Assembly: GCF_031432215.1 (NCBI RefSeq)
Contig: NZ_JAVKGN010000001.1
Coordinates: forward strand, 1,603,421-1,667,420
Reading direction: 5' to 3'
Length of the DNA: 64,000 nt
Origin: Halodesulfurarchaeum sp. HSR-GB
GTDB lineage: Archaea > Halobacteriota > Halobacteria > Halobacteriales > Halobacteriaceae
The number at the start of each line of letters is the position of its first letter. Positions within the stretch are counted from its first letter, which is position 1. The position numbers and the translations under genes were made by a program. Below the pieces are notes generated by a model that worked only from the letters and a program-made list of their open reading frames with translations, ran no database searches and was not told the DNA's origin. Of this stretch, positions 11,854 to 14,127 are shown piece after piece.

Positions 11854-12026
11854 GAGTCGTGTGTTGGTTCCCGGCCGATGGGCCAGGCCGTCGCGATCGG
11901 GCGAGCGGTCACGTAGGTAGTGATAAAATCGGGACGATTGCACCTATACGTTCGGATTTCGATGAGCCGGCCGACAGGTTTGTTACGTGGAGGCTTAATG
12001 GACAACTGGCAGGGTCAAATTAGTCA

Positions 12027-13268
12027 TCACGGGACTCGGCACTTCTGTCTAATCGGGCTCATTATCAACCGGACAGTTACCACCGAGAGGAGCATTATTG
12101 AGAGAAGGGACGTTCCAACATACGCCAGTGATACCGTATCGAAGATCATATTTATCAACTGATTGGTCCCAATAATCACGCCCAAAATACCGAACGCTGA
12201 TAGTGCAACTTGTTTGCCGGCTTGATATTGCATATCGCGTCGGACTTTTATCACATCTCCAACACTAATATTCAATTTGTCTCGTTCTGTGCTCGGAATG
12301 CGTATTGAGAGGGATTGGTCCTCACCAAATGAATCTTCAGTCGACTCACTCGGTTCGAGTGCTCCATCTTCCTCCCACGCCGACTGACATCGTACATTTC
12401 GTCGTTTTAGATCATCCCCTCTCCAGGATAAGATCACACGATCGTTTTCTTCAATCCCGAGCCTTTTCATGCCATCTTCGTTTAGTCGGACCAGATTTCG
12501 GCCCTCATCTCGATCATACCCTGAGAGAACCCGGAAATAGGCATAACTGTAATCTACAAACCACCGGCCAATCCTATTATAGATTTTATGGGAAAAACCA
12601 GCAATCGGAGTTGTTTCAGTTGGAATGCGTAACCGAACACTATCGTTGTCCCCTTCGTCTTTGGATTTCACTTGAAGGAGTTTGCGAGCACTTCCATTCA
12701 GTCGAATAGTTCCCTCATTCCGGTTCTTGTGATAGTACGTCTCGACTGGTAACTGCAAACGCGCACCGTTTTCAGGATTGACGAGTTCGCATATATCCCC
12801 CTCTTCTAATTCTTTCATATTCTCCATATCGTTTGAAGATATGTACCCGGCGAGACCTTCCGTTGTTATATCACGACTTTCATTCTCCCAAGCCGAATCT
12901 CGGTGAACCCGGAGATTATCTATCGTATTCGTTTCAACTTCTTGGATTGTAACGGCCGGCTCGTCAGTATTCTCAACAGTAAGGCCAATTTCTTTTTGAA
13001 GTTTGGTTCGTATACAGGACCAATAGAGGCCATCTGTCGAAAACTCTTCAGCGTCATGTTCACTACTAAATGTAATTATTTGCGCTAGTGTACCCCCCGT
13101 TTCCGACCCCTGAGGAGTTACTTTGACATATTCATATTCGTTCGTATTATTAAATTTGGAAAGTACTGATTCCGGAACAATAACTGCATACCGAAATTTA
13201 TCTCCCTTCTCAAAGCTGGAGTCTTTAAAATCAGAAATTGTCTTGCTTATAACCCTCGCACTGGCCAA
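12027..13268 (-). CDS. Hypothetical membrane protein with barrel-like repeats
   Basis: 413 residues, probably from TTG 13268, since no ATG is near; it overlaps the end of the upstream gene by 22 bases. The DNA is clearly AT-richer than its surroundings, and codon use (ATA, AGA, TTA) differs. Residues 15-340 seem to hold two or three similar beta-rich units: compare the segment RLNEDGMKRLGIEENDRVI with RIPSTERDKLNISVGDVIKV, and an earlier GTIRLNGSARKLL. This spacing resembles double-psi beta barrels such as the CDC48 N-domain or AbrB-like folds. Two hydrophobic segments close the protein (about 350-405). No known family name is recognised, and acquisition by transfer is likely. Confidence 0.6.
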   Translation of the reverse strand: MASARVISKTISDFKDSSFEKGDKFRYAVIVPESVLSKFNNTNEYEYVKVTPQGSETGGTLAQIITFSSEHDAEEFSTDGLYWSCIRTKLQKEIGLTVENTDEPAVTIQEVETNTIDNLRVHRDSAWENESRDITTEGLAGYISSNDMENMKELEEGDICELVNPENGARLQLPVETYYHKNRNEGTIRLNGSARKLLQVKSKDEGDNDSVRLRIPTETTPIAGFSHKIYNRIGRWFVDYSYAYFRVLSGYDRDEGRNLVRLNEDGMKRLGIEENDRVILSWRGDDLKRRNVRCQSAWEEDGALEPSESTEDSFGEDQSLSIRIPSTERDKLNISVGDVIKVRRDMQYQAGKQVALSAFGILGVIIGTNQLINMIFDTVSLAYVGTSLLSIMLLSVVTVRLIMSPIRQKCRVP

Positions 13269-13933
13269 TCAGGATCACCCTTTAGCCGGTCATTTTCCTT
13301 GACGGTATTAAATTCTCTAGGGTCCTCTGAGTCATAGGCAGTTTCAAAGGTAGATTCACGGAAGTCATCATAGAACTGCTTGGCGAAGTCAGTATCATAC
13401 ATTTCGTCAACCATCTTTATTCCAGTGATTATTCTACTATGATATGTTTCGTTCCGTGTACGTTTAGTAGAAATTTTATCTATCTCATATGATTTTGAAA
13501 ATAGTTGGATTCGGTCGACATCAGCCAGATCCACGTTTGGAACGTCGTCAACATAAAATTCCAATTTTGGGTCTCGAACATCAGCGAATTCGTAAACGGA
13601 CTCTGTCTTTTTTACTTGGACTTCTTCTTCCTCGGACAAACCAAATATTAAAACTCCGTTTATCCAGTCGTTTGAGTCGTTCGTTCGAACAACCTCTAAC
13701 ATGGTTCCACCCCTGGGCGATTCAAGAGAGTAATAACGACGAAATCCCCAAATCTTCGCCGGAACATAGTATATTCTGTCTTTCCGATTTTGCCATTCTT
13801 TCAATGCATCTCCACTGATATTCCCATTCGTATTTCCCCGATACACGTCATCAATTGACGTGTCAAAGTCCTCAAACCGAGATACAAGACTTGTAGGGAG
13901 AATTAAACTGCCGTAGGCGAATAGTGGTGGCAT
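13247..13933 (-). CDS. Gamma-glutamylcyclotransferase-like (AIG2/GGCT fold) protein
   Basis: 228 residues from ATG 13933. The N-terminus PPLFAYGSLI is the YGSL signature of the gamma-glutamylcyclotransferase fold, where the loop binds a gamma-glutamyl group. WGFRRYYS and NGVLIFGLSEEE follow in family order. A glutamate in VKKTESVYEF lies where the catalytic acid is expected. The C-terminal helix GIKMVDEMYDTDFAKQFYDDF is also family-like. Substrate unknown: it could act on gamma-glutamyl amines or a modified peptide. It is AT-rich like its downstream partner, with which it overlaps, and they form a two-gene unit beside tRNA-Gln. Confidence 0.68.
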   Translation of the reverse strand: MPPLFAYGSLILPTSLVSRFEDFDTSIDDVYRGNTNGNISGDALKEWQNRKDRIYYVPAKIWGFRRYYSLESPRGGTMLEVVRTNDSNDWINGVLIFGLSEEEEVQVKKTESVYEFADVRDPKLEFYVDDVPNVDLADVDRIQLFSKSYEIDKISTKRTRNETYHSRIITGIKMVDEMYDTDFAKQFYDDFRESTFETAYDSEDPREFNTVKENDRLKGDPDWPVRGL

Positions 13934-14026
13934 GGATTAGTCAACCCCTCGAAACCCATGAGAACCCCCGGCAACGAGAGTTGTACTCCACATTTTAATT
14001 TGATTTCCTGAGACGCCTGTTGCCAT

Positions 14027-14127
14027 AGTCCCGGGCGGATTCGAACCGCCGTCATGGGCTGTCTTCCCCCCGCGGAATTCCACGAGAGTCCAAAGGCCCA
14101 TATGATTGGCCACTACACCACGGGACT
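14027..14127 (-). tRNA. tRNA-Gln (anticodon UUG) with an intron
   Basis: On the minus strand the acceptor AGTCCCG at 14121-14127 pairs with CGGGACT at 14027-14033, and the T arm GGCGG-TTCGAAT-CCGCC is perfect. An anticodon stem TGGGC/GCCCA forms only if about 29 bases (14061-14089) are removed. This gives a loop with anticodon TTG and places the intron after position 37, the usual archaeal site. Haloarchaeal tRNA-Gln(UUG) genes are known to carry an intron there. No CCA is encoded. The AT-rich gene pair lies beyond its 3' end. Confidence 0.93.
14061..14089 (-). other. Intron of tRNA-Gln
   Basis: About 29 bases between G37 and A38 of the tRNA, by fitting the anticodon stem. It should be removed by the archaeal splicing endonuclease at a bulge-helix-bulge. 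The exact ends were set from stem pairing and could be off by one or two bases. Confidence 0.75.

Follow-up and report, generated by a model that had tools for sequence, protein, structure and literature searches.

An AT-rich overlapping gene pair of Halodesulfurarchaeum encodes a GGCT-fold protein and a predicted membrane protein with CDC48-N-type barrel architecture

The genome of Halodesulfurarchaeum sp. HSR-GB contains, next to a tRNA-Gln gene, two overlapping genes that are conspicuously AT-rich, here called gene A and gene B. The locus raises the question of what the two encoded proteins are, whether they belong together, and what they might do. To answer it, we analyzed a stretch of 64,000 nt around the pair (hereafter, the window) and the homologues of both genes in other archaea. 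The features of the locus are compiled in Table 1.

Table 1. Coordinates of the gene pair, its protein regions and the adjacent tRNA gene in the window
Feature	Position	Strand	Evidence and remarks
Gene A: GGCT-fold enzyme, 228 aa	13247..13933	-	ATG start; ORF, AF2 model, Foldseek, homologues
YGSL motif, A residues 7-10 (substrate-binding loop in the GGCT fold)	13904..13915	-	Conserved in relatives; PMC7022552
E111...Y114 of A (ExxY), with the glutamate presumed to be catalytic	13592..13603	-	Invariant in alignments; cf. ChaC2 E83/Y87 (PMC7022552)
Gene B: 413-aa barrel protein ending in a membrane hairpin	12027..13268	-	TTG start; ORF, Pfam CDC48_N
B 1-125: N-terminal domain, possibly third barrel	12894..13268	-	AF2 beta pattern
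B 126-235: second barrel-like unit	12564..12893	-	hhalign to B 236-350, weak PanD match
B 236-350: double-psi barrel, CDC48-N type, both halves	12219..12563	-	hhalign, PDB profile, Pfam
B 354-406: two transmembrane helices	12051..12209	-	Hydropathy, model, alignment
tRNA-Gln(TTG) with 29-nt intron	14026..14127	-	ARAGORN intron mode; context/insertion site, not part of the system

The locus and its setting

Gene A comes first and gene B follows, with an overlap of 22 bp. The position of the TTG start of gene B and an overlap of 19-22 bp are common to the orthologues (five loci measured). The GC contents of A and B are 41 and 44%, compared with about 63% for the neighbours, and the local GC content is 39-46%. 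The GC3 values, 0.39 for A and 0.41 for B, are the two lowest in the window, the corresponding value for the 48 other called ORFs being 0.755 ± 0.075. An earlier reading made from the sequence alone (the sequence-only reading) had described two overlapping genes with base use unlike their surroundings, and the ORFs, the overlap and the GC and GC3 values bear this out.

The same reading had placed the pair just beyond the 3' end of a tRNA-Gln gene, and the intron mode of ARAGORN indeed located this tRNA, with its 3' end facing the gene pair and 92 bp between it and the ATG of gene A. The default ARAGORN scan missed the tRNA because of its intron. Beyond the tRNA gene, upstream of the pair, lies the suf operon. 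The tRNA intron is situated in the anticodon loop, and two congeners (G001 and G002) have the same intron arrangement.

No integrase was found within the gene pair, nor any convincing tRNA-derived (att-like) direct repeat flanking it. Recombination at the tRNA end was considered as the integration route and was rejected, because no att-like repeat is present. The far end of the pair (12025-12036) matches the 5' end of the tRNA gene (14116-14127) at 11 of 12 nt, which is at chance level; moreover, a typical att site would be expected at the other end of the tRNA.

The two proteins

The sequence-only reading had proposed a GGCT fold for A, and the structure comparison agrees. When the AF2 model of A (pTM 0.75, from only four alignment rows) was compared with the PDB using Foldseek, the top six matches all had the GGCT fold, namely B. 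subtilis YkqA, an Arabidopsis AIG2-like protein, human GGCT, the mouse AIG2-like GGACT and, twice, human GGACT (best E-value 5.5e-4, probability 1.00). Below these six there was a clear gap, followed by unrelated folds and noise. The TM-scores to the GGCT-fold structures were moderate, 0.30-0.41 by query length.

The active-site signature is also conserved. Residues 5-10 of A read FAYGSL, and YGSL is kept in 15 of 16 relatives; in the convergent copy of G254, Ile replaces the tyrosine of the motif. E111 and Y114 are invariant, divergent non-haloarchaeal relatives included, and Y127 and Y164 are further conserved positions. Work on human ChaC2 counts YGSL and a catalytic glutamate among the hallmarks of the GGCT fold and lists a conserved Tyr-Gly-Ser together with three further tyrosines (PMC7022552); E111 and Y114 of A correspond in position to the Glu/Tyr pair E83/Y87 of ChaC2. 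The spacing of the residues in A suggests the same active-site constellation as in ChaC2.

A second line of evidence for GGCT kinship, at the level of sequence and independent of structure prediction, comes from a non-haloarchaeal homologue (L135, 594-1133), which matches the A profile at 5e-26 and the NCBIfam family FTN_0599_fam_GGCT at 1.7e-7. For A itself, searches of Pfam, NCBIfam, PADLOC and PHROGs gave nothing significant; A stayed below the curated cut-off of the Pfam GGACT family PF06094, and a search of the window genome with this family was likewise empty. Searches of the PDB with the sequence of A or its own profile yielded only chance matches to haemagglutinin, and hhalign against haloarchaeal GGACT aligned the YGxL region alone (probability 24%).

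Thus, A resembles the GGCT-fold cyclotransferases (human GGCT, GGACT and ChaC, B. subtilis YkqA, and AIG2; PF06094/PF13772) in its predicted fold, in the YGSL loop, in the invariant Glu followed by Tyr and, via L135, in a weak sequence link. It differs from them in lacking a Pfam match, in the greater length of the window clade (20-40%, with extra sequence inserted around residues 22-55), and in its fixed partnership with, or fusion to, a membrane barrel protein. A is a member of the GGCT-fold superfamily that keeps the active-site signature (YGSL and the invariant Glu and Tyr), and it may share the cyclotransferase chemistry.

Protein B matched the Pfam family CDC48_N (PF02359) at 2.4e-11, with 44.1 bits against a cut-off of 35.1. 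In hhalign, residues 236-350 aligned with the N-domains of haloarchaeal CDC48 over 87 columns that include both halves (E-value 1.6e-14), and the profile of B matched double-psi beta-barrel (DPBB) proteins in the PDB at 4e-11. A non-haloarchaeal B has an independent CDC48_N match (2.4e-12). The preceding region, residues 126-235, is related to residues 236-350 (hhalign probability 90%, 1.8e-6). The AF2 model of B, although of low confidence (pLDDT 57), is structurally closest to a CDC48 DPBB domain. Residues 1-125 are the best-modelled part of this weak model and have a weak sequence relation to the other barrels; judging from the model, they probably form a further beta domain.

The sequence-only reading had proposed repeated barrels in B on the basis of the segments RLNEDGMKRLGIEENDRVI and RIPSTERDKLNISVGDVIKV. 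A double-psi CDC48-N barrel and a second unit are indeed recognizable, whereas the two segments turned out to be the halves of one and the same barrel. The description of the barrels as tandem is still valid, because residues 126-235 constitute a related barrel-like unit. The two-helix membrane anchor of the same reading was recovered as well: hydropathy predicts two membrane segments in all members of the B family, and the model of B contains two long helices. Conserved basic stretches flank this hairpin, RRDMxYxAGKQ before it and RQKC after it. By the positive-inside rule, basic flanks of membrane segments lie on the cytosolic side, so that both ends of the hairpin and the barrels of B would be cytosolic.

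With its full two-half barrel, B 236-350 is like the N-terminal double-psi barrel of CDC48/VAT/p97 (PF02359). However, B gave no AAA hit and ends in the membrane hairpin; in contrast to CDC48/VAT/p97, it lacks the AAA ATPase domain, and its barrels are repeated and placed on a C-terminal hairpin. There is also weak profile similarity to aspartate decarboxylase (PanD) and other DPBB proteins (B 122-191 versus PanD, 7.7e-4) and to the half-barrels of AbrB/MazE (B 318-345 versus MazE_antitoxin, 4.9e-5), but B remains below the curated cut-offs of these families, and nothing points to decarboxylation or DNA binding. Taken together, B combines at least one complete double-psi barrel of the CDC48-N type with a second, related unit and a C-terminal hairpin, and is predicted to be a membrane protein.

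Linkage, distribution and evolution of the pair

Matches of the B profile to CDC48 N-domains in 325 of 394 haloarchaeal genomes were set aside as CDC48 ATPases, their open frames being mostly 700-900 aa long. Full-length B was found at 15 loci in 14 of the 394 genomes. An A-type gene neighbours B in eight genomes, and one extra locus is a fusion. At six loci A overlaps B (G000, which is the genome of the window, G001, G219, G290, G337 and contig 2 of G352), and at two others the neighbour is a shorter GGCT-like gene convergent with B, 15 and 70 bp away (G254 and G036, respectively). The fusion is found on contig 21 of Halobellus rarus (G352; L031, 8359-10320), where A and B form one protein of 653 aa in which A is joined to the N-terminus of B; A and B therefore reside in the same compartment. 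In five genomes (G062, G230, G231, G221 and G291), a GNAT acetyltransferase gene lies beside B without a GGCT neighbour, and in one (G067) B has neither neighbour. The GNAT partner or lack of a partner at these six loci indicates that B does not always depend on A. The GNAT neighbours (L034, L035, L036, L037 and L039) are of two unrelated types and are twice found within lysine/DAP biosynthesis clusters.

Divergent versions of the pair also exist. In the haloarchaeon G144, a GGCT gene of 222 aa overlaps a gene for a barrel-plus-membrane-helix protein of 364 aa, and this pair has 45% GC within a region of 59% GC. Outside of the haloarchaea, a phylum scan revealed relatives of B in two genomes, G487 and G507, and when their whole class was searched, only two of 58 genomes had the B type. 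Upstream of B in G487 lies a clear GGCT gene, which stops 1 nt short of the B gene. The gene in the corresponding place in G507 has a YGSN...E..Y pattern and is GGCT-like by motif only, with a profile score that is not significant. A contig scan with the B profile, based on one short pattern, found haloarchaea only and is weak as a negative elsewhere.

These overlapping, fused, convergent and divergent adjacent loci, the last in G144 and in the non-haloarchaeal class, are in line with the sequence-only reading, which had made the co-occurrence of homologues a check of the pair. Within the haloarchaea, A and B co-occur in eight genomes compared with 0.6 expected (Fisher p 5e-9, a value inflated by relatedness); counted by genus, the number is three and p is 0.01. 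Adjacency and fusion are stronger evidence of linkage than these co-occurrence statistics. Solitary A-type genes occur in several haloarchaea. In one genus (g33; L093, L095 and L096), a solitary short GGCT-like gene adjoins a conserved gene of 217 aa (MTDFERRxAVDRV...) and is apparently vertically inherited. Altogether, A and B recur as linked genes with translational overlap and, in one case, as a fusion; both their linkage and their domain architecture are well supported.

At the sufD-tRNA-Gln site of the third species of the genus (G002), the pair is absent and other genes follow the tRNA; loss in this species and gain in G000/G001 are indistinguishable explanations. The site differs again in other genera of the family. 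Composition, patchy distribution and this absence in the third congener speak for the import of the pair, as the sequence-only reading had suggested.

The flanks of the locus are mostly 97-99% identical between G000 and G001. From the 3' side of the tRNA to about codon 170 of B, a stretch that includes A, the identity is only 75-91%; the rest of B is 98-100% identical. Accordingly, dS is 0.64 for A and 0.50 for residues 1-160 of B, whereas it is 0.02 for residues 161-413. This mosaic indicates that A and the N-terminal part of B have been swapped as a block allele. Such a block exchange suggests that A works with the N-terminal part of B, as does the fusion, although it represents a single event in one genome pair. 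In comparison with the locus L026 of a congeneric species, the mosaic spans window positions 12750-14040. The dN/dS ratio of the pair, about 0.15-0.18, indicates purifying selection on both alleles.

Neither A nor B turned up in searches of viral contigs, phages and mobilisable plasmids; among plasmids, two relatives of B were recovered. One of these is encoded on a plasmid of Halobacterium hubeiense (G067; L033, 5241-14778), where B lies among AT-rich genes together with a DUF4145 gene, which matches PADLOC PD-T7-4 at 2.1e-48, and a gene for a PLD-family nuclease. This neighbourhood is possibly a defence island. Overall, the locus is an accessory module of two proteins and has spread horizontally.

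Possible roles of the pair

As for the substrate and the physiological role of the pair, we infer a membrane-tethered complex in which the barrels of B position a partner or substrate and A cleaves a gamma-glutamyl-type amide, with a conditional role in the cell. This reading is favoured tentatively. A and B would form the complex on the cytosolic side of the membrane. CDC48 N-domains bind adaptors, substrates and ubiquitin-like folds, and the barrels of B may likewise be the binding or regulatory part, placing A beside a substrate that is located at the membrane or recruited to it. A would then cleave the gamma-glutamyl-type amide by intramolecular cyclization, releasing 5-oxoproline. The distribution of the pair as occasional cargo suggests a conditional role, in stress or conflict, rather than a housekeeping role. 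A more specific version, in which a dedicated GGCT-fold "eraser" receives its substrate, a gamma-glutamyl-tagged peptide or protein, from the CDC48-N-type barrels, as part of a modification pathway at the archaeal membrane, is speculative and on balance unlikely.

Anti-virus defence or abortive infection, with B sensing infection at the membrane and switching on A for metabolite depletion or protein modification, also appears unlikely, but several features of the locus would fit. The pair is patchily distributed, AT-rich and, in the window, adjacent to a tRNA; A and the N-terminus of B diverge fast and recombine; the sensor-plus-effector layout is like the two-gene sensor-plus-enzyme layout of anti-phage systems in PADLOC 2.0; and the homologue on the G067 plasmid lies beside the PD-T7-4-matching gene and the nuclease gene. 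However, neither A nor B matches any PADLOC family, and the appearance of a defence island is confined to one examined locus. The absence of the pair from viral and phage records was counted as neutral.

Somewhat less probable than defence is thiol turnover, in which A would degrade gamma-glutamylcysteine to 5-oxoproline and cysteine at the membrane under regulation by B. Gamma-glutamylcysteine is the major low-molecular-weight thiol of halobacteria (PMC7278568), a ligase of the GCS2 type, which makes this thiol, is encoded in 16 of 16 haloarchaeal hosts tested, and human GGCT and ChaC, which act on gamma-glutamyl thiols (PMC7022552), provide a precedent. Yet this thiol is made by nearly all haloarchaea, while B is restricted to 14 of 394 genomes, and a soluble thiol substrate requires no membrane anchor. 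In the class that harbors the G487 and G507 pairs, the search for GCS2-type ligases gave no match in 57 genomes, which are incomplete. Simple turnover of gamma-glutamylcysteine is disfavoured because this second host class lacks GCS2 matches and because the thiol is much more widespread than the pair. As gamma-glutamylcysteine is an unlikely common substrate, the proposed membrane-tethered complex would more likely act on a gamma-glutamyl-modified peptide, protein or amine.

The CDC48-N type of the barrel, and the affinity of CDC48 N-domains for adaptors and ubiquitin-like folds, could also point to a protein-quality or SAMP adaptor, whose barrels bring clients or modifiers to the membrane, where A removes an isopeptide-linked group. 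The pair of G487 adjoins a gene for a PAN-like ATPase (L137, 4803-6035), but this adjacency was seen once only, and SAMP, E1-like or proteasome genes were not noticed near other loci, which makes such an adaptor rather improbable.

We consider a toxin-antitoxin system, in which one protein would be toxic alone and be neutralized by the other, very unlikely. The overlapping two-gene unit, the mobile distribution and the MazE/AbrB-like half-barrels of B would be compatible with it. However, half-barrel ancestry in common with DPBBs accounts for the below-cut-off MazE similarity, which the CDC48_N match clearly outscores. In addition, B is a large membrane-bound protein, it would be uncommon for a toxin to be fused to its antitoxin, and each of the two genes also occurs without the other. 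That the linkage arises solely because both genes insert at the same hot spots (genomic islands), without joint function, is scarcely credible: both genes are mobile, some loci lie in variable regions and GNAT genes also recur beside B, but the single-protein fusion, the coding overlaps at the five measured loci, the near-zero spacing in unrelated hosts and the occurrence of the same pair at different insertion sites all argue against it.

The sequence-only reading knew of no described system of this make-up, and the combination of A and B was found neither in a paper of the open-licence literature searched nor in the family libraries. Both folds are known; what appears to be new is their fixed, membrane-bound partnership. 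By way of conserved linkage and a gene fusion, this partnership ties the ubiquitous but poorly understood GGCT fold to a membrane-anchored CDC48 substrate-binding barrel across distantly related archaea. A putative gamma-glutamyl chemistry at the membrane of archaea thereby becomes open to direct tests in a genetically tractable host, and the function of the CDC48 N-barrel apart from its ATPase can be studied in a compact system.
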